Source of the DNA: Algoriphagus halophilus
GTDB taxonomy: Bacteria > Bacteroidota > Bacteroidia > Cytophagales > Cyclobacteriaceae
Assembly: GCF_900129785.1 (NCBI RefSeq)
Contig: NZ_FSRC01000001.1
Coordinates: 1,054,001-1,118,000 of the forward strand
Length of the DNA: 64,000 bases
Direction: 5' to 3'
The position numbers were made by a program, and so were the translations under genes. The notes under the pieces were generated by a model that ran no database searches, was not told the DNA's origin, and saw nothing but the letters and a program-made list of their open reading frames with translations. Shown piece by piece: positions 865 to 13,002 of this stretch (positions within the stretch are counted from its first letter, which is position 1; every line of letters starts with the position of its first letter).

Positions 865-1152
865 TTATTTGAGTTCTTTGGTAGTTTTTGGTCCCGCTAT
901 TTTGAAAGAGTTAGTTTTTGTATCTATTTCTAATCCCCATCTTTCCAAATTGGGTAGTTCCAAACTTTTTTCCCGGTATTCATCTGGAGTCATAATGGGA
1001 ATCCCATAGATGATCGGAAAATACCGTTGGCAGGATTCGCAAGTGAGTAATCCTTCTATGATTTCCTGATACTCAGTTTCTTGGATGACTTGGATCTTTA
1101 AGTCGCTTTTGTCAAAAGGACAACAAAGTTTATCTACTAATTTTCGATTCAT
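865..1152 (-). CDS. Trm112-like zinc-binding protein
   Basis: A 95-residue protein of the Trm112/YcaR (UPF0434) family. The CCPFD motif (Cys10-Cys11) and a second pair, CxxC (Cys38, Cys41), make the expected zinc ribbon, and YGIPIM matches the conserved segment after it. In eukaryotes and archaea Trm112 is a partner that stabilises and activates class I SAM methyltransferases; bacterial homologues are less well understood. Here it is the last gene of a TPP-riboswitch operon whose first gene is a class I SAM methyltransferase, so a methyltransferase partner role is a natural inference. The gap to the ThiE-like gene is 7 bp. The C-terminal 35 residues extend beyond the small zinc core and are lysine/threonine rich at the end. 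Confidence 0.8.
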   Translation of the reverse strand: MNRKLVDKLCCPFDKSDLKIQVIQETEYQEIIEGLLTCESCQRYFPIIYGIPIMTPDEYREKSLELPNLERWGLEIDTKTNSFKIAGPKTTKELK

Positions 1153-1159
1153 GTAAATG

Positions 1160-1783
1160 CTATTTAAGTTGTTGGAGATAGGTTTGGACAGCCATTTCAG
1201 GGTCTGTAGAGTTTAAGATTCCGGAAATAACCGCAATTCCTTCGAAGGAGAAATGGCTAAGTTTTTCCAGGTTCTCTGGGTTGATTCCGCCTGAAAGGAA
1301 GATCGGCAATGAAGTCAATTTCCTGGCTTGCTGGATACTTTCAGGGTGAACTAACTCACAGGTATCAACTGAGGAAGAAGGGAATACTGAACAAAAGCTG
1401 ATGTATGATAATTGATTTTCCTCCGCCCATAAGATCAGTTCCTCTTGATTGCCTACAGTTAGTCCAATGATTTTACTTTTTAAAGATTCCCTTATTAGCT
1501 CAAATTCTTCTGGTACTTTGTCTAAATGTACCCCATCCAAATTGCACTTTTCGGCTAATTTCCAATCCTCATTGATCAGTACTGGAACTTGATAAGTCTG
1601 TGCAATTTTTTTGATATCCTGACAGAATTTGATCTTGTCTTGTTCGGTGACTTGTTCAGGCCAGTGATTCCAAATTTGAAGTAGTTGAACCCCTCCTTTG
1701 AGTGCTTGTTGGGTTTTTTCAAGTAGTTCTAGCCAGGGTTGATTTGGATCCAGAACCAAATATATTCCTTCTAGTTTTTTCAT
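1160..1783 (-). CDS. ThiE/TenI-family protein (divergent thiamine-phosphate synthase-like)
   Basis: A TIM-barrel protein of the ThiE/TenI family, 207 residues from the chosen ATG at 1783. That ATG overlaps the TGA of the preceding gene (ATGA), which favours it over an upstream start giving 13 extra residues. Family landmarks are recognisable: GVHL, SVFPSSS, LSGGINPENL and GIAVISGI. Several residues usual in ThiE look changed. The QLR-x-K type diphosphate motif reads QIWNHW, the NDxxDLA segment reads NEDWKLA, and GVHLGQ reads GVHLDK. ThiE normally joins HMP-diphosphate and thiazole phosphate to give thiamine phosphate; TenI relatives are tautomerases. The fold and the thiamine link (TPP riboswitch upstream) are well supported, but the exact reaction is not. 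Confidence 0.8.
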   Translation of the reverse strand: MKKLEGIYLVLDPNQPWLELLEKTQQALKGGVQLLQIWNHWPEQVTEQDKIKFCQDIKKIAQTYQVPVLINEDWKLAEKCNLDGVHLDKVPEEFELIRESLKSKIIGLTVGNQEELILWAEENQLSYISFCSVFPSSSVDTCELVHPESIQQARKLTSLPIFLSGGINPENLEKLSHFSFEGIAVISGILNSTDPEMAVQTYLQQLK

Positions 1784-2844
1784 GTCATACCTTGTTGTAA
1801 AGCTTTGAAGAATGCTCCCCAATAAGGGTCAATTCCATTGAATTCAAAATTTGATGATCCACCGGACTTATCTAGTAAGGTATTCTTAGGACTATTTGTG
1901 AAAGTACCAATGGAAACGGCCGGAATTCCTTCATCTTTTAATCGGTTGATGAGTTTATTTTCACTTTCCGGGGTAACCGCCATAATCATAGATCCTGCTC
2001 CAATTGAAATAAGCGGGTCGATCCCGAAAAGTTCGGACACCTGTTGAACTTCCGTTGGAACAGGTATATCTGCAACATTTACAGTGAAACCCAAACCAGA
2101 GGCACTGGCCATTTCCTGAATTGCACCTAAAATCCCTCCCTCCGTAACATCATGCATGGCATGTAGCTCTTGGTGTGGAGTGAGTGTTTGATGTGCTAAT
2201 CTTGCTTCCTTCAATACGGAAAGTTTCCAGAAGTTATCCGCCGCAGTTTGTTGGATCTTTTTTCCCAAAGCAGACTGAACTGTTTCCGGAAAGGACATAG
2301 CCAAGAGTGATGTAGATGAAATAGCTGCATGTTTGGTGAGGATAATAGCATCTCCATCTTTGGCTAATGAGCTAGTTAGAATTTGGTTTTTGGGAGCTTT
2401 CAAAAAGAAAGTACCCCCTCCGGAAATGGTAGATTCAATTCCAGGGATTTGCCCGGTATGCCCACCTGTGATGCTGATCTCCATTTCCTCACAAAGGGAA
2501 TGAATATGTTGCCAATATTCCTGGAAATCTTCCCTGCTTAAGCTTAATGGTAAATTGAGCACAAACTGAGCATATTGTGGTCCGAAGCCCGTTGTACTCA
2601 TATCATTGGCCAATAAATGTACCGAAAGCCATGCAGAAACCTTCATTCCCAGACTTGGGATCAATGAAAGAGGATCGCTCGAAATGGCCAAGGCATCTCC
2701 ATTTCCAATATCCACCATGGCAGTATCTACTCCGAACCTGGGCCCATGAATGACCTCTTTTCTTCCAGCTCCACAGAAGTTTAAAACATCTTCTTTAAAC
2801 ACCTCCGAGCTGACTTTACCCGCTGAATTCTCAAAAGCTCCCAT
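1780..2844 (-). CDS. AIR synthase/HypE/ThiL-fold (PurM superfamily) protein
   Basis: A 354-residue PurM-superfamily protein. The N-terminal half carries FGVDTAMV, ISSDPL and the ANDMSTTGFGP stretch that corresponds to the NDL-A-GA-P motif of AIR synthase, ThiL, HypE and SelD. The C-terminal half has MHDVTEGGILGA, equivalent to the HypE/PurM DPTxGG region, and a final GSMIMAV strand. Family members bind ATP and activate a substrate oxygen or phosphorylate it. The HypE C-terminal PRxC signature is absent (it ends QGMT), so hydrogenase maturation is unlikely. Within a TPP-riboswitch operon next to a ThiE-like gene, a ThiL-like kinase or another thiamine-related ATP-dependent step is plausible but inferred. 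Its start overlaps the methyltransferase stop by 1 bp (TAATG). Confidence 0.75.
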   Translation of the reverse strand: MGAFENSAGKVSSEVFKEDVLNFCGAGRKEVIHGPRFGVDTAMVDIGNGDALAISSDPLSLIPSLGMKVSAWLSVHLLANDMSTTGFGPQYAQFVLNLPLSLSREDFQEYWQHIHSLCEEMEISITGGHTGQIPGIESTISGGGTFFLKAPKNQILTSSLAKDGDAIILTKHAAISSTSLLAMSFPETVQSALGKKIQQTAADNFWKLSVLKEARLAHQTLTPHQELHAMHDVTEGGILGAIQEMASASGLGFTVNVADIPVPTEVQQVSELFGIDPLISIGAGSMIMAVTPESENKLINRLKDEGIPAVSIGTFTNSPKNTLLDKSGGSSNFEFNGIDPYWGAFFKALQQGMT

Positions 2845-3569
2845 TAGACATCCAATAATTGAACATGGAACCCAAAGAAATCACCATAGGGGATTTTCCA
2901 TTGTTTTTTAGGGAACCATTTTGGCAATCCAGTGGCGTTCCATTCGATTTTGTATTTCCGGTCAGGCAAGGCTTTTGCTACCAATGCTTCCAGGGATGCG
3001 GGAGTATAGAAATGGGCAGTCACATAATAATTGTTTCTTCCGAAAACCTGCTGGACTTTACGTCGGAGTAGTTTGGGGGTATTTCGGTTCATCATTCCAA
3101 AAATGATCCCATACTTTCCTACTCGAACCGCTTCTTGGATTACCTGAATAGGGTTTTTGTAATATTCGAAGGTGGTGACAAAAGCCAATGCATCAAAGGA
3201 ATGATCCTTGAAAGGCATATGATGTGAATCAGCCATCACCAGGTCTCCGTCAAATAATTGTACCCCTTGTGCCAACATAAAAGGAGAAATGTCTCCTCCG
3301 GTAGCTTCCAATCCGATTTCATGCCACCAGCGGGTAAATCGGGTAGTTCCGCAACCAAATTCCAATAAGGTTTTCACCCGATGATCCTGTTTGATGAGTT
3401 CCTCCAAGGTCTTTTTTTGCCAGACTTCCTGGAATTTATAAGGGCCCTCGTAGTAATCTTCGTAATGGTCGGTATCATCCCGGTTGAAAAACCATTCTTT
3501 TCTACCTTGCCAATTTCGAAGCCCATCAGGAGCTACTTCAAATTTTTCTTGTTTGATCAGTTTACTCAT
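2844..3569 (-). CDS. Class I SAM-dependent methyltransferase, first gene of TPP-riboswitch operon
   Basis: A 241-residue Rossmann-fold methyltransferase. Motif I is LLEFGCGTTRF (about 68-78), followed by GGDISPFML (acidic ribose-binding position), MADSHHMPFKDHSFDAL (motifs II/III region) and an FVTTFEYY post-III stretch. The N-terminal 60 residues are rich in Asp, Tyr and Trp and may form a substrate lid. The substrate is unknown. It is the promoter-proximal gene behind a TPP riboswitch, 66 bp from the aptamer, and is tightly coupled to PurM-like, ThiE-like and Trm112-like genes. That argues for a role in thiamine or thiamine-precursor metabolism rather than tRNA or protein methylation, though the Trm112-like protein could be its activator. 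The start at 3569 sits just after a perfect inverted repeat. Confidence 0.8.
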   Translation of the reverse strand: MSKLIKQEKFEVAPDGLRNWQGRKEWFFNRDDTDHYEDYYEGPYKFQEVWQKKTLEELIKQDHRVKTLLEFGCGTTRFTRWWHEIGLEATGGDISPFMLAQGVQLFDGDLVMADSHHMPFKDHSFDALAFVTTFEYYKNPIQVIQEAVRVGKYGIIFGMMNRNTPKLLRRKVQQVFGRNNYYVTAHFYTPASLEALVAKALPDRKYKIEWNATGLPKWFPKKQWKIPYGDFFGFHVQLLDV

Positions 3570-3571
3570 TC

Positions 3572-3587
3572 GTCTATGTTCATAGAC
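3572..3587. repeat. Perfect 7-bp inverted repeat just upstream of the methyltransferase start
   Basis: Arms GTCTATG (3572-3578) and CATAGAC (3581-3587) are separated by two bases and end 2 bp before the methyltransferase start codon (minus strand). A five-codon reading frame beginning at 3583 lies in the same place, and its TGA overlaps the gene's ATG as ATGA. The position between the aptamer and the start suggests it may be part of the expression platform (inference). Confidence 0.5.
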
Positions 3588-3634
3588 CTGAATGAATCCC
3601 AGAAATGGAGAGAAAGTGAAAAATAAGGAGGTTC

Positions 3635-3705
3635 ACAATTCCTACGCTGGCATTATCCAGATCAGGTTTTCGGGTATCATCTCAGCCTTTTGGGCACCCC
3701 GTTGT
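3635..3705 (-). ncRNA. TPP riboswitch (THI element)
   Basis: On the minus strand the sequence contains the hallmark TPP aptamer blocks in order: GGGGTGCCC, then GGCTGAGATGATACCC, then CCTGATCTGGATAATGCCAG followed at once by CGTAGGA. A short P1 stem is formed by ACAA at 3705-3702 with TTGT at 3638-3635. These match the conserved THI-box sequence almost base for base. It precedes the methyltransferase, PurM-like, ThiE-like and Trm112-like operon and should switch that operon off when thiamine diphosphate is abundant. No strong intrinsic terminator is visible between it and the first start codon. A small GTGAA/TTCAC hairpin next to the aptamer and the inverted repeat at 3572-3587 are candidate platform elements, so translational control is the more likely mechanism. 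Confidence 0.95.
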
Positions 3706-3781
3706 AAATTTTGTTCTACACAAAGATAGAAAGAAGAAGGAAAGGGAAAAGTCTTTCCGCTTTTGAATTCAAATACCTGAC

Positions 3782-4123
3782 TTAGGCTTTAAACTCAAAA
3801 ATTTTCTCAGTAATCGCCCATCTCCAATTAGCCGGAGTACCTGGGAGATTGGTCTGATATTGTCCAAGGAAGGTCTCCCATTCCTGCACTTTTGGATTGC
3901 TCTCATCTAGTTTTGCCTTCTTTTCGAAAGAGAAATCCTCGTCACCCACCAAAATCATGGTTAGTCGGTTCTGCCATCGGTATATGCTCATTTGCAAAAC
4001 TCCAGCAATCCGAATACTTTCAATGATTTCTGGAGCCACTGCCTTATGACATTCCACATAAGCTTGAATGGCTTCTTCTTCATTTTTCAGGTCGCAGATC
4101 AGTACATATGTTTGGGTTTTCAT
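3782..4123 (-). CDS. L-rhamnose/L-fucose mutarotase family protein (RhaM/YiiL-type)
   Basis: A 113-residue protein of the L-rhamnose mutarotase (DUF718) family, which are dimeric ferredoxin-like folds. Recognisable features are the N-terminal YVLICDLKN strand, a central ECHKAVAPEIIESIRIAGVLQMSIYRWQNRL block with the family's conserved His, Arg and Tyr/Trp residues, and the C-terminal MILVGDEDF. The enzyme equilibrates alpha and beta anomers of a 6-deoxyhexose. Because it is last in an operon with an L-fucose permease (4-bp overlap) and fucose oxidation genes, it probably supplies beta-L-fucopyranose to the fucose dehydrogenase. Rhamnose remains an alternative substrate on sequence alone. Confidence 0.8.
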   Translation of the reverse strand: MKTQTYVLICDLKNEEEAIQAYVECHKAVAPEIIESIRIAGVLQMSIYRWQNRLTMILVGDEDFSFEKKAKLDESNPKVQEWETFLGQYQTNLPGTPANWRWAITEKIFEFKA

Positions 4124-5438
4124 TGGGCAGAAGATTTTACTCGAACACTAAACAATCCTACAAATACAAAACAGATTAAAGGAAGAATAAAGGAGAAATT
4201 GACCTCAGGTACCCCTAAAATTAGCGTGTCATCGTAACCTGCCCCTCCAATATCCATGATCATTCCTTGTAAGGTAGGCATGATAGCACCTCCCACAATT
4301 GCCATTACTAAAAAGGCAGCAGCAAACTTGGAGTCTTCTCCAAGACCTTCCAAAGCGATACCATAAATGGTTGGGAACATCAAGGACATAGCAAAGGAAA
4401 TCGCTACCAAACTATACAAACCTAACATCCCGGGAAGGAATATGGCTCCAGCAGTAAATAGAATGGCTAATACAGAGAATATGGCTAGTAACTTTGCCGG
4501 AGCAAAAAACTTAAATAAGTAGGTACAAATCCATCTTCCAATTAAAAATACCACCAAAGCAGAGTACCCATAATTCACTGCAGATGCATTGGAAATCCCT
4601 AATACTTCGGCGTATTGGTAGATATAGGTCCAAACCATGATCTGAGCACCTACATAAAACATTTGTGCAAAAGTTCCTTCCACAAAATTCCTTTTGGCCA
4701 ATAACCTTTTCATGGTAGCAGCAAAGTCAATTCGGTTGTTAGCGTCTTTGCTTTCGGGCATTTTGGCTAAAGCAATGATGACTAAAATGGCCAAAACCAC
4801 CAAACCAAGCATCACATAAGGATTTCGTATGACCATCAAATCCGCAGTTCTGATCACGGCCTTGGCGGATTCATCCAAGGCCGTGAAGATGATATTTCCA
4901 TCCGCATCTGTTTCATTGGATTGGAGGGCATTTAGGATGAATTGTTTGGCTACAAACAAGCCTGCCAAAGCTCCCATTGGGTTAAAGGCCTGGGCTAAGT
5001 TCAATCGTTGGGTAGCGGTGGCTTCTGGCCCCATAGCCAAAATATAGGGGTTGGCAGTGGTCTCCAAAAAAGCCAAACCAAAGGTCAAGATGTATAAGGA
5101 GGCCAAGAAGAAACCATAACTTTCCCAAGCTGCAGCTGGGTAAAATAGGAGGGCTCCGAATCCATACAGACCAAGTCCTAGTAGAATACCTGTTTTGTAG
5201 GAGTATTTTTTAATAAAAAAGGCAGCGGGAAGTGCCATGGTAAAGTAGCCTCCATAAAATGCCATTTGTACCCAAGATGCCTGGGTGTTATTCAATTCCA
5301 ACACTCTTTTAAAGGCTGCCACCATGGGGTTGGTGATGTCATTGGCAAAACCCCATAAAGCAAAGAGGGAGGTGATCAGAATAAATGGAAGAATTAAATT
5401 TTTGGGGACTAGGGCAGGTTTTTGGGTTGGGTTGTTCA

Positions 5439-5439
<1 letters not shown>
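4120..5439 (-). CDS. fucP: L-fucose:H+ symporter, MFS family (FucP)
   Basis: A 439-residue inner-membrane MFS permease of the FHS/FucP family with about 12 hydrophobic helices. The N-terminal FALWGFANDITNPM motif is diagnostic for this group (compare FFxWGxxxxLN in FucP), and the EATATQRLNLAQAFNPMGA and FLETTANPYIL segments match FucP/GlcP transporters. A roughly 60-residue loop between helices VI and VII carries a short acidic insert. It should import L-fucose across the inner membrane. The start overlaps the stop of the SDR gene by one base (TAATG) and its stop overlaps the mutarotase start, so the three are translationally coupled. Sugar specificity is inferred from family and context. Confidence 0.88.
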
Positions 5440-6230
<791 letters not shown>

Positions 6231-7061
6231 TTATTCTTTTATCCCGTAAAAATCCACTGCATTTTCACCCATAATTAATTTTTTCTCAGAAGGTGAGAGC
6301 TTGTCGGTAAAACGATCTACCAACTCAAATACTTGTTCATATCCTGCAGCGACCAAACATACCGGCCAGTCGGAACCAAACATCAATCTCTTGGGACCAA
6401 AAGCCTCCAAAACAATCTCCATGTAATTTTCAAAATCATGGGGTTTCCATGTTTTCCAATCCGCCTCGGTGACCATACCGGATAGTTTGCAGGAAACATA
6501 TTCCCGCTCTGCGATAGGGGCAAGTTCCTTTTTCCATTCTCTCCAGATTCCCAGCTTAATATTGGGTTTAGCCAAATGGTCAATGACAAATGGTTGCTCT
6601 GGACTTCGTTTCAAAAAATGAAGGGTAGCTTCCAGTTGATTAGGAAAGATCAGAATATCATACGTATATCCCCGCCTTCCTATTTTTTCAATTCCACGGA
6701 TAAACTCTTTTCTAAGCATGTATTCCACCGGTTTGTCTTGCAAAACTTCCCGGTATCCTTTGAGCTTTTTGTGTTTGGAAAACTGGTCAAGATCCTTGTC
6801 TAAGGCATCACTACCTAAATCGGCCCAACCTACTACTGCTTTGATTTCCTTGAACTCCTCCGCTAAATCAATTAAAAATGCGGTTTCATAAAAACTTTCA
6901 TCAGCCTGAACAGCCACACAGCCATCGAGCTGATGTTGGGAAAGTAAAGGGATCAGGTCATCCGGAAGAAAATTCTTCTGGATGACCTTCATATCTTCAT
7001 TGATCCACTGATGTTTTTGTGGATTATACTTCCAGAAATGCTGATGAGCATCTATTCTCAT
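6231..7061 (-). CDS. Amidohydrolase-2 family lactonase, probable L-fuconolactonase
   Basis: A 276-residue TIM-barrel hydrolase of the amidohydrolase-related (PF04909) COG3618 group. It begins with the metal-site HxH (His6, His8), has the VIDHLAKP strand with its His, and ends with FGSDWPV carrying the conserved Asp. COG3618 contains L-fucono-1,5-lactonase and L-rhamnono-lactonase. In this operon it would open L-fuconolactone to L-fuconate. Its ATG overlaps the stop of the preceding FAH-family gene (4 bp), and it lies 21 bp upstream of the SDR gene. Confidence 0.8.
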   Translation of the reverse strand: MRIDAHQHFWKYNPQKHQWINEDMKVIQKNFLPDDLIPLLSQHQLDGCVAVQADESFYETAFLIDLAEEFKEIKAVVGWADLGSDALDKDLDQFSKHKKLKGYREVLQDKPVEYMLRKEFIRGIEKIGRRGYTYDILIFPNQLEATLHFLKRSPEQPFVIDHLAKPNIKLGIWREWKKELAPIAEREYVSCKLSGMVTEADWKTWKPHDFENYMEIVLEAFGPKRLMFGSDWPVCLVAAGYEQVFELVDRFTDKLSPSEKKLIMGENAVDFYGIKE

Positions 7062-7918
7062 GCTTCCGGATCATTGACTGCCACTTGCTTGGAAACGCCC
7101 AATCCATCGATTCCTAGCTCCACTACGTCTCCCTCCGCCAAATATCTTGGTGGGTCAAAGCCTAACCCTACTCCGGCTGGGGTTCCGGTGGAGATTACAT
7201 CTCCAGGCAATAAAGTCATGTATTGACTGAGGTGTTCGATGAGGGTAGGTATATCAAATACCAAATCAGAAGTATTGCTGTCCTGAATCGTTTCCCCATT
7301 AAGCTTCAGCCAAAGTCTCAAATTATGAGGATCAGGAATCTCAGTTTTGGTAGCCAAAAAGGGGCCTAGTGGAGCAAAATTGTCCGCACTTTTACCTTTA
7401 ACCCACTGCCCACCATGTCGAAGTTGAAAATCTCTTTCACTGACATCGTTATGTAAGCAATAACCTGCTACATAATCCATGGCATTTTCCTTACTGACAT
7501 ACTTGGCTCTTTTTCCAATCACTACCGCCAGTTCAACTTCCCAGTCAGTGGCAACGGAATTCTTTGGAATATAAATTGGATCAAATGGTCCGCATAGGGA
7601 AGAAGTAGCTTTCATAAAGATGATTGGTACCTCGGGAACTGGCATACCTGATTCAATGGCATGTTTCCTGTAGTTTAATCCAATGCATACAATTTTGGAA
7701 GGTCTGGCAACAGGAGAGGCAATTCTACTACCTTCAGGGATTTTAGTTAAGGTATCGAGGTTTGCTTCTAACCAAGCATCCAATCGATCGAGCCCATTTT
7801 CAGCAAAGAATTGCTCGTTCCAATCTTCGAGGAAGCCAGAACAATCCAGGTAGTTTCCTTCTTCATCTATAATTCCTGGCTTTTCCTGACCAGTGTCTCC
7901 AAATCGTATCAGTTTCAT
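7058..7918 (-). CDS. Fumarylacetoacetate hydrolase family protein, probable 2,4-diketo-3-deoxy-L-fuconate hydrolase
   Basis: A 286-residue FAH-family hydrolase. The C-terminal domain from about residue 75 has the landmark GLNYRKHA, the metal-binding DWEVELAVVIG (two acidic ligands) and GDVISTGTPAGVG near the end. FAH proteins cleave C-C bonds of diketo acids using Mg2+ or Mn2+. In oxidative fucose catabolism this enzyme splits 2,4-diketo-3-deoxy-L-fuconate into pyruvate and L-lactate, which fits the neighbouring lactonase and dehydrogenases. The gene starts at 7918 after a 144-bp gap from the SDR gene, where an extra promoter could lie. Confidence 0.8.
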   Translation of the reverse strand: MKLIRFGDTGQEKPGIIDEEGNYLDCSGFLEDWNEQFFAENGLDRLDAWLEANLDTLTKIPEGSRIASPVARPSKIVCIGLNYRKHAIESGMPVPEVPIIFMKATSSLCGPFDPIYIPKNSVATDWEVELAVVIGKRAKYVSKENAMDYVAGYCLHNDVSERDFQLRHGGQWVKGKSADNFAPLGPFLATKTEIPDPHNLRLWLKLNGETIQDSNTSDLVFDIPTLIEHLSQYMTLLPGDVISTGTPAGVGLGFDPPRYLAEGDVVELGIDGLGVSKQVAVNDPEA

Positions 7919-11864: not shown

Positions 11865-13002
11865 CCGAGTTTGACTCTAGACTTTTCTTTTGATTATTCA
11901 CCGGATTGGCATACATGGCCAAGAAATTTTTAACCATCAATGCGTTCTTGGTGTCAACTTTTTCGACCAACCTTTTTTCAAATGCATTTTTCTCTTCCTG
12001 TGTATAAAAGGAGAGGTACTCTTCATCTCCATACAAGAGATCATGAGCAATGTAATTACTTGGCCAAAGTTTATATCCAGACCAGATTTTTTGATCAATG
12101 ACTGCCGCTAATTGGGAAAGCTTCTCGCCTAGGTTGAGCTCTGTTTTGGAAATCTCGGCAATCTCCTGATCTATTATACCATTGACCTGAATATGAATTC
12201 TCTTTTTGGTACCCATGATTCCTCTTAAAAGATTTAAGAAGTCCTCATTTTCACTCTTAATGTATTTTTCATCTCTTGACTTTGCCAGCAGCTCAGGCAT
12301 TTTTAAGATGTCTGTTGGATCGTATTCGTAAGAAATAGAAATTGGCACCACTTTGATTTTTTCGAAGTAAGCAAAAGGGTCATTGCCTTCTTCGGCTAAC
12401 GTGAGCATTTTCAATACGCCACGGTGGGTTGCATCATTTCCATCCTTGGTTCTTCCTTCTCTTTGTGCAGTCCAAACAGACCTGTTTTCATGTACCAACG
12501 ACTTTTTAATATAAGCAGAAGCCAATTGAGAACTTTCCAATAAAGCTCTTCCTTGAAGTCCTCTTTTGATAGCAAAATTTCTATTGAGTCTAGAAAGTGT
12601 ATGCAAGAATTTCTTTTTGATCAAATTGTCTCCAATAGCAGAGGTGGTTAAAACCAACCCATTCTCATAAAGACAAGAATTGAGCAAAGAGGTGTCGAGG
12701 ATAATGTCCCGATGGTTGGAGATAAACAAATATGCGGTATTGGGCTCCAACTGCTCGAAACCGCCGATGCTTAGTCCATCAGAACTTTTTTCAAGCACTT
12801 TTTTTACTCCGGGGTAAATAAAGTTGATTTGAAAATCCCTTAAAGAATGGGTATGCAACATCAGGTCTTTCCAATGTTCTTTTGAGTCTGAAGGAAAGGT
12901 GAAATTCATCATGGCCTCCAGCATAGGGTCATCCACTATTTCTCGAATGGCAGCATTGGCTTCTGCATCGTAAAATGGCCTGATAGAATCAAAATTTGAC
13001 AT
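11857..13002 (-). CDS. PlsC/PlsB-like acyltransferase
   Basis: A 381-residue glycerolipid acyltransferase-type protein. The block I motif is NHRDIILD (the NHxxxxD catalytic signature), and later segments RNFAIKRG and WTAQREGRTKDG correspond to the substrate-binding motifs of PlsB/PlsC enzymes (the usual PEGTR-like element is here REGRTKDG). No transmembrane helix is evident, so it may be membrane-associated. Likely acyl-acceptors are glycerol-3-phosphate, lysophosphatidate or an ornithine/aminolipid, all common in Bacteroidota. It stands alone on the minus strand, converging with the GAF kinase. Confidence 0.8.
   Translation of the reverse strand: MSNFDSIRPFYDAEANAAIREIVDDPMLEAMMNFTFPSDSKEHWKDLMLHTHSLRDFQINFIYPGVKKVLEKSSDGLSIGGFEQLEPNTAYLFISNHRDIILDTSLLNSCLYENGLVLTTSAIGDNLIKKKFLHTLSRLNRNFAIKRGLQGRALLESSQLASAYIKKSLVHENRSVWTAQREGRTKDGNDATHRGVLKMLTLAEEGNDPFAYFEKIKVVPISISYEYDPTDILKMPELLAKSRDEKYIKSENEDFLNLLRGIMGTKKRIHIQVNGIIDQEIAEISKTELNLGEKLSQLAAVIDQKIWSGYKLWPSNYIAHDLLYGDEEYLSFYTQEEKNAFEKRLVEKVDTKNALMVKNFLAMYANPVNNQKKSLESNSVS

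Follow-up and report, generated by a model that had tools for sequence, protein, structure and literature searches.

A conserved four-gene operon behind a TPP riboswitch in Algoriphagus halophilus and other Bacteroidota, with a probable role in thiamine acquisition

The DNA analysed here (henceforth called the window) is a stretch of 64,000 nucleotides from Algoriphagus halophilus (contig NZ_FSRC01000001.1, positions 1,054,001 to 1,118,000), part of a genome of 4.98 Mb, and carries on its minus strand a thiamine pyrophosphate (TPP) riboswitch followed by four genes (Table 1). These encode, in this order, a class I S-adenosylmethionine (SAM) methyltransferase, a protein of the PurM/HypE/ThiL fold (PurM-fold protein), a divergent ThiE-like protein, and a small Trm112-like zinc-ribbon protein. 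The aptamer, which an initial annotation made from the sequence alone had described as near-consensus, was matched by the Rfam model RF00059 over its full length (model positions 1–105 of 105), with 69.4 bits against a gathering score of 54.3. The genes were found to be as tightly coupled as claimed, with a 1-base overlap between genes 1 and 2, a 4-base overlap between genes 2 and 3, and a 7-base gap between genes 3 and 4. The extent given originally (865..3705) was correct at the gene end (865), and at the other end the riboswitch runs six bases further, to 3711. Because of the E-value of the riboswitch and the recurrence of the same gene order in other genomes (see below), a layout by chance was excluded. 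Folding of the leader was no better than that of shuffled sequences (z −0.59), and the stretch from the aptamer to gene 1 had no listed terminator-like site. Riboswitches of the TPP class usually act as OFF-controls in response to TPP, and this mode was assumed for the operon as well.

Table 1. Coordinates of the operon within the window and, in the last two rows, of a further riboswitch locus (positions of locus L045)
Feature	Coordinates	Strand	Evidence
TPP riboswitch aptamer (THI element, RF00059)	3622–3711	minus	cmscan 69.4 bits, E 1.4e-11
Gene 1, class I SAM methyltransferase, 241 aa	3569–2844	minus	Pfam Methyltransf_11, 58.1 bits
Gene 2, PurM/HypE/ThiL-fold protein, 354 aa	2844–1780	minus	Pfam AIRS + AIRS_C
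Gene 3, divergent ThiE-like protein, 207 aa from ATG	1783–1160	minus	Pfam TMP-TENI, 129.7 bits
Gene 4, Trm112-like small zinc-ribbon protein, 95 aa	1152–865	minus	Pfam Trm112p, 30 bits (cut-off 22)
Second TPP riboswitch	L045 9976–10072		
UPF0047 protein	L045 11928–12380		

The conservation of the module was assessed by searching the PurM-fold protein in 296 Bacteroidota genomes, of which 11 (the window's included) encode relatives with E-values below 1e-100, the next best match lying at 1.4e-15. The order of the four genes is identical in all ten other genomes with such a close relative. RF00059 precedes the operon at the Rfam score in nine of these ten and with 47.8 bits, below the gathering score, in the tenth (G069), so that an aptamer stands before the operon in all 11 operon genomes, in ten of them above the Rfam score. 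A collection of species genomes was additionally scanned with the methyltransferase alignment, and the best 80 of the 223 relatives were kept as loci. All four genes were present in the same order and on the same strand in 76 of these best 80 loci, the remaining four (L106, L147, L153, and L170) being interrupted by contig ends, which means that the order is shared beyond the strain in which it was first noticed. The hosts comprise Algoriphagus, Ekhidna, Roseivirga, Neolewinella, Pontibacter, Runella, Cyclobacterium, a Sphingobacterium metagenome-assembled genome (MAG), and Balneolaceae. Using a covariance model built from the 11 aptamers, a riboswitch was detected upstream in 74 of the best 80 loci (a simple sequence pattern found 46 of the 80), with three of the 74 not being independent of the model, as L152, L156, and L166 are very probably the same records as G171, G190, and G092. 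In a tree of the four joined proteins (87 loci), two Algoriphagus groups lie far apart, one of them within a clade shared with Ekhidna, Roseivirga, and Neolewinella (support 1.0, 21 members); this split suggests that the module has been transferred between lineages as a unit.

A general fifth gene was not found among the 80 loci, since neighbour families (listed if present in at least four loci) occurred in at most 12, and the family reaching this number is ABC transporter-like by eye and varies in position. In locus L141, from a Balneolales MAG, a thiL gene (290.7 bits, cut-off 184.15) begins 22 bases past gene 4, behind riboswitch and four genes. As ThiL uses thiamine phosphate, this placement points to thiamine phosphate as the product of the operon. 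Among other features around the module, a dihydroorotase-like gene (named by eye) at L103 (2487–3857) ends 24 bases before gene 1 without a riboswitch, and L134 has a weaker second TPP-riboswitch match (12813–12904, minus strand, 41.1 bits) just past gene 4 on the strand opposite to it. Upstream of the riboswitch in the window, a sugar-catabolism-like cluster on the minus strand (3782–7918; rhaM mutarotase, MFS transporter, SDR, amidohydrolase, and FAH-family hydrolase), possibly directed at L-fucose or L-rhamnose, was noted, several genes of which also flank the operon in four or five Algoriphagus loci.

Assignments to NCBIfam and Pfam families were judged by the cut-off of each family. All four identities proposed in the initial annotation lie above the respective Pfam cut-offs, and every NCBIfam score listed for the four proteins fell short of its family cut-off. 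Of the four, the methyltransferase shows the strongest conservation, with 65–70% identity to its ten homologues in the other genomes and 107 of 241 positions conserved at 97% or more among 91 sequences. Its closest named relative is from Algoriphagus aestuarii (97% identity). In the PDB it matched methyltransferases of a general kind, and Bud23, which is a Trm112 partner, was one of the weaker matches. Its plasmid matches are confined to eight records with at most 35% identity. The PurM-fold protein missed the cut-offs for ThiL (TIGR01379; 65.7 of 184.15 bits), HypE (TIGR02124; 74.9 of 251.6 bits), PurM (TIGR00878; 25.6 of 236.35 bits), and SelD (TIGR00476; 63.6 of 125 bits). According to the alignment it retains the motifs SDP, ND, and GGHT, and the C-terminal Cys, a hallmark of HypE, is absent from the 11 aligned members. 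In a tree that took in 36 of the 89 operon proteins together with five haloarchaeal, five ThiL, one SelD, and 19 unnamed relatives, the operon proteins grouped with haloarchaeal AIR synthase family proteins (support 0.918). One scan each with the methyltransferase and the PurM-fold protein returned no viral relatives; over nearly its full length, however, the PurM-fold protein (1780–2844) is matched by phrog_36592, a family of phage proteins without an assigned function (5.4e-19). The Trm112-like protein scored above the gathering score of PF03966 and has the zinc-ligand Cys residues (Cys 10, 11, 38, and 41, each kept in 85 of 87 proteins), reached 65.2 of the 77 bits needed for the archaeal equivalog NF038101, and carries a DEYR motif in the 11 aligned members. 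Judging from family and gene linkage, it is the probable partner of the gene 1 methyltransferase.

The ThiE-like protein had been called atypical, which was borne out both by its score and by its residues. It reached 125.1 bits of the 145.1 required for the ThiE equivalog (TIGR00693) and 59.6 of 251 bits for the thiazole tautomerase TenI (NF005819). The pocket was inspected in an alignment of 87 operon proteins (84 distinct), 72 ThiE/TenI-type controls, and Bacillus subtilis ThiE, which provided the numbering; the controls (66 distinct sequences from 42 partly overlapping loci, mostly the best TMP-TENI matches of genome family f17) are an unbalanced sample. R59, K61, and K159 were taken to be the pyrophosphate-site residues, the acids at 93 and 112 the Mg ligands, Q57 and H107 the pyrimidine-site residues, and the GGI loop the binder of the thiazole phosphate. 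At position 59, Arg is found in 71 of 72 controls, whereas every operon protein has an aromatic residue (Trp, Tyr, or Phe) there, position 61 is Lys in 67 of 72 controls and His or Asn in 84 of 87 operon proteins (Arg in one), and the Lys at position 159, present in all 72 controls, occurs in none of the 87. Consequently, at least three basic residues at positions 59/61/94/159 were counted in 67 of 72 controls and in none of the operon proteins, the mean net charge at these positions being +3.78 and −0.41, respectively. Aromatic residues occupy both 59 and 62 in 86 of 87 operon proteins, Trp is found at position 95 in 76 and Cys at position 151 in all 87, none of which was seen in any control, and position 163 is likewise Cys in all 87. 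No operon protein is acidic at both 93 and 112, but only 40 of the 72 controls are. Conserved, on the other hand, are the pyrimidine-site residues (Q57 and H107 in 87 of 87, N92 in 77 with His in the other ten) and the GGI loop (GG in 87, I in 85). In the tree, the operon proteins separate from the controls with a support of 0.978. With the basic residues gone and aromatic ones in place, it appears that the pocket has lost its fit to pyrophosphate; a group that is neutral or positively charged might be accommodated instead.

Profile searches for canonical thiamine genes covered 36 genomes, of which 11 carry the operon and 25 do not. ThiC was found in none of the operon genomes versus 2 of 25 without the operon, ThiG above 300 bits in none versus 3 of 25, and ThiM over its cut-off in none versus 3 of 28. 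Partial ThiG matches over the Pfam cut-off of 23 occurred in G250, G151, G190, and G277 (at most 27 bits, or 34.3 with in-frame neighbours) and were taken as other TIM barrels. ThiD exceeded its cut-off in one operon genome (G250) versus 3 of 25 without the operon, with partial matches of 58–60 bits in the operon genomes G203 and G171 and two further matches at 131 and 139 bits in operon-free genomes. The operon's own TMP-TENI protein is the sole strong one in all 11 genomes, weak second partial matches being limited to G250 (27.8 bits) and G203 (27.0 bits; cut-off 27). A TPK domain was detected in 10 of the 11 operon genomes and in 16 of the 25 others; the TPK catalytic domain is missing and ThiL is present in all eight genomes of family f1 (G000, which is the window's, G076, G111, G194, G049, G146, G186, and G273). 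The window's own genome has a separate ThiL (326.2 bits), no match for ThiC, ThiG, ThiM, or a second ThiE, and just a 23.5-bit fragment for ThiD. A second PurM-fold match in this genome was rejected as ThiL, as it is SelD (464 bits) and ThiL lies elsewhere. For the initial annotation, which had set its proposal against a full canonical pathway elsewhere in the genome, this outcome is mixed, with the presence of ThiL counting against the proposal and the missing ThiC, ThiG, ThiM, and second ThiE counting for it. Across the 296-genome sample, none of the 103 genomes with ThiC is among the 11 operon genomes, and a TMP-TENI match at E ≤ 1e-31 was counted by hand in 131 of the 285 non-operon genomes. 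Related genomes differ in the same way: in genus g10, G277 has the operon while G012 and G095 have ThiC, ThiG, and ThiE, and in genus g76, G250 and G151 have the operon while two strong TMP-TENI matches were found in each of the operon-free G227, G274, and G286.

Another TPP riboswitch precedes a gene of the TonB-type receptor family in all 11 operon genomes, with 41.1 bits, i.e., below the gathering score, in G277. The receptors of the other ten share 30–53% identity with that of the window's genome over the first ~450–500 residues, and the latter matched TonB-linked families, all below cut-off. In locus L098 (Ekhidna lutea), a riboswitch is followed by a TonB-type receptor gene and then by the four operon genes, the receptor being 55% identical to the riboswitch-controlled receptor of the window's genome. 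A third, weak TPP riboswitch (48.6 bits) in the window's genome stands before a PnuC-family transporter. About 2 kb from the second TPP riboswitch of this genome (G000:C2, near 921975–922071), on the side opposite to the receptor gene, a UPF0047 protein is encoded, a family that we take to be YjbQ. One study lists YjbQ together with ThiE as an enzyme of the condensation (PMC5613172).

We read the operon, with a probability of roughly one half, as a TPP-controlled system for thiamine acquisition that would bypass ThiC, ThiG, ThiM, ThiD, and ThiE in supplying thiamine monophosphate (or thiamine), the most likely product being thiamine phosphate handed to ThiL. By analogy, the operon is taken as the counterpart of the ThiM/ThiE/ThiD salvage route of related bacteria, because three of its activities could match the three jobs of ThiM, ThiD, and ThiE, namely thiazole phosphorylation, pyrimidine activation, and joining of the halves. 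A thiamine-related compound would enter via the TonB-type receptor. The PurM-like protein would use ATP to phosphorylate a substrate, most simply the thiazole alcohol, and would thus stand in for ThiM. In the role of ThiD, the methyltransferase, which the Trm112-like protein would hold, might modify or activate the other moiety. The ThiE-like protein would join or release the product without a pyrophosphate leaving group, and ThiL would convert the product to TPP. The initial annotation had suggested an undescribed thiamine-related step; that the step is non-canonical is well supported by genomics because of the conserved order, the riboswitch, the canonical genes not found in the 11 genomes, and thiL as fifth gene in L141, whereas its chemistry and substrate are conjectural. 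A more specific version, which as a whole we consider rather unlikely, would be a pyrophosphate-free thiamine phosphate synthase, in which the methyltransferase–Trm112 complex would create a quaternary ammonium or sulfonium leaving group on an amino- or thio-methylpyrimidine (e.g., the aminomethyl pyrimidine formed on thiamine breakdown), the PurM-like protein would be a new hydroxyethylthiazole kinase, the ThiE-like protein would join the halves with Trp/Phe at the former pyrophosphate site holding the cationic group, and ThiL would phosphorylate the product. SAM would thus replace ATP and ThiD in the assembly of vitamin B1. Such a cationic leaving group is consistent with the residues of the ThiE-like pocket.

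Several points weigh against this assignment. All of the evidence for the thiamine function, which we infer, is genomic, and to our knowledge thiamine chemistry includes no methylation step that could account for a SAM enzyme. By the covariance model, the riboswitch was absent from six of the best 80 loci (L103, L106, L107, and L109–L111), and both adjacencies to other thiamine genes are single cases (thiL as fifth gene in 1 of 80 loci, the receptor gene in L098). ThiL itself is not specific to operon bacteria, since it exceeded its cut-off in all 11 operon and all 25 operon-free genomes, G250 has ThiD in addition to the operon, and TenA, THI4, THI5, and YjbQ were outside the genome-wide search. 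As a TPK domain occurs in 10 of the 11 genomes, imported thiamine could itself become TPP, and a need for the operon is not proven. The receptor may, by analogy with the OMthi receptor of Bacteroides thetaiotaomicron, simply import thiamine, and its riboswitch was surveyed in the operon genomes, with no operon-free control. Finally, many operon-free relatives carry neither the operon nor the canonical set, and the exclusion between operon and canonical genes (p 0.008 for ThiC, 0.001 for TMP-TENI) comes from statistics that ignore phylogeny; the contrasts within genera are more telling.

Instead of supplying new thiamine, the operon might repair or recycle thiamine damaged by oxidation, ring opening, or wrong alkylation. 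The PurM-like protein would then perform an ATP-dependent ring closure similar to the PurM reaction, and the ThiE-like protein would serve as a hydrolase or as a tautomerase of the TenI kind. PurM chemistry makes a five-membered heterocycle from a formyl amide, the pocket combines thiazole-phosphate loops with the lack of a pyrophosphate site, and ThiL would be available for re-use of the product. Repair would not be expected, however, to exclude another ThiE, ThiC, and ThiG, and the pyrimidine-site residues are kept (Q57 and H107 in 87 of 87, N92 in 77, His in ten), and we hold this explanation to be possible but not likely. That the product is no vitamin at all but a thiamine-like antimetabolite or signal merely under TPP control appears improbable to us: bacimethrin-type clusters do include a methyltransferase, which suits the synthesis of an analogue better than that of the vitamin, and the patchy distribution with its likely transfer between lineages would fit, but expression at low TPP would starve the producer, an exporter is not conserved (the most frequent neighbour family, ABC transporter-like by eye, is found in 12 of 80 loci and in varying places), and thiL is the fifth gene in L141.

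If the changes of the pocket were drift, the ThiE-like protein could be an ordinary thiamine phosphate synthase fed by a cryptic hydroxymethylpyrimidine phosphate (HMP-P) kinase, with the other three genes helping. HMP kinases exist in other families, and ThiD was over its cut-off in G250 and partial (58–60 bits) in G203 and G171. The substitutions are nevertheless fixed over 87 proteins, 84 of them distinct (aromatics at 59 and 62 in 86, K159 lost and Cys 151 present in 87), and the operon set splits from the controls with a support of 0.978, and we consider this reading improbable. Still less probable is a full de novo route to one half of thiamine, e.g., a new thiazole or pyrimidine synthase with a PurM-like cyclase. 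Neither ThiC nor a full ThiG turned up in the 11 operon genomes, and PurM forms an imidazole ring, yet four proteins are no obvious replacement for two branches, the receptor link suggests uptake, and THI4 and THI5 were outside the searches. The known targets of Trm112 partners are tRNA, rRNA, and release factors, and Bud23 is among the PDB matches of gene 1, from which one could conclude that the methyltransferase–Trm112 pair modifies RNA or protein and lies with thiamine genes by chance; with the order fixed in 76 of 80 loci across many families and the module opening with gene 1 and closing with gene 4, a chance placement is very hard to credit.

Taken together, the operon probably gives some Bacteroidota without known vitamin B1 synthesis genes an unfamiliar way of acquiring the vitamin. 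Judged by the marker genes in common use, they are classed as thiamine auxotrophs. If salvage of a vitamer holds true, a range of Bacteroidota could live on compounds omitted from models of vitamin B1 exchange, and thiamine metabolism would gain a methyltransferase, a PurM-fold enzyme, and an enzyme of the ThiE type that uses another leaving group.

Among known systems, the runs ThiM-ThiE-ThiL-ThiD (G211) and ThiM-ThiE-ThiD (G249 and G273) resemble the operon in encoding soluble enzymes including a ThiE-type protein, and in these genomes, as in the operon genomes, ThiC was not found and ThiL is present. The operon differs from them in having no ThiM or ThiD homologue and, instead, a PurM-fold protein, a methyltransferase, and a Trm112-like protein, and in its ThiE-type protein lacking the pyrophosphate site. 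With ThiE itself (TIGR00693), the operon protein shares the TMP-TENI family, Q57, H107, mostly N92, and the GGI loop, and it departs from ThiE by its score below the equivalog cut-off, the loss of R59/K61/K159, the aromatics at 59 and 62, and the Cys residues at 151 and 163. The closest relative seen for the PurM-fold protein is a haloarchaeal AIR synthase family protein whose function is not named (31% identity over 95%). On three Haloarcula plasmids (L227, L229, and L230), the corresponding gene is divergent from and adjoins the genes for a thiamine-binding protein and a thiamine transporter, whereas it has other neighbours in Haloferax and Halobacterium; methyltransferase, ThiE-like, and Trm112 genes were not listed near the haloarchaeal loci. 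Like the Trm112 activator (PF03966), the fourth protein is a small zinc-ribbon protein encoded with a class I methyltransferase, and it differs from Trm112 in being bacterial and in its DEYR motif, its partnership with gene 1 being putative. A description of the four-gene operon was not found in the open-access literature among the matches listed. A survey of gut genomes tabulates salvage variants that rely on ThiD and ThiM or on thiamine itself (PMC6593275), and a Baltic Sea study reports that the vitamin B1 transcripts of Bacteroidetes were mostly those of the uptake genes omr1 and pnuC, with genes for thiazole and B1 synthesis present and none for HMP synthesis (PMC12442306). For Bacteroides, the TPP-riboswitch operons thiSEGCHF-tenI, OMthi, and pnuT-tnr3 are given, with OMthi of B. 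thetaiotaomicron being a riboswitch-controlled putative thiamine receptor (PMC5613172). Bacteroides and the operon genomes are alike in the riboswitch class and in a further riboswitch before a TonB-dependent receptor; the difference is that the four-gene module takes the place of the biosynthetic operon.

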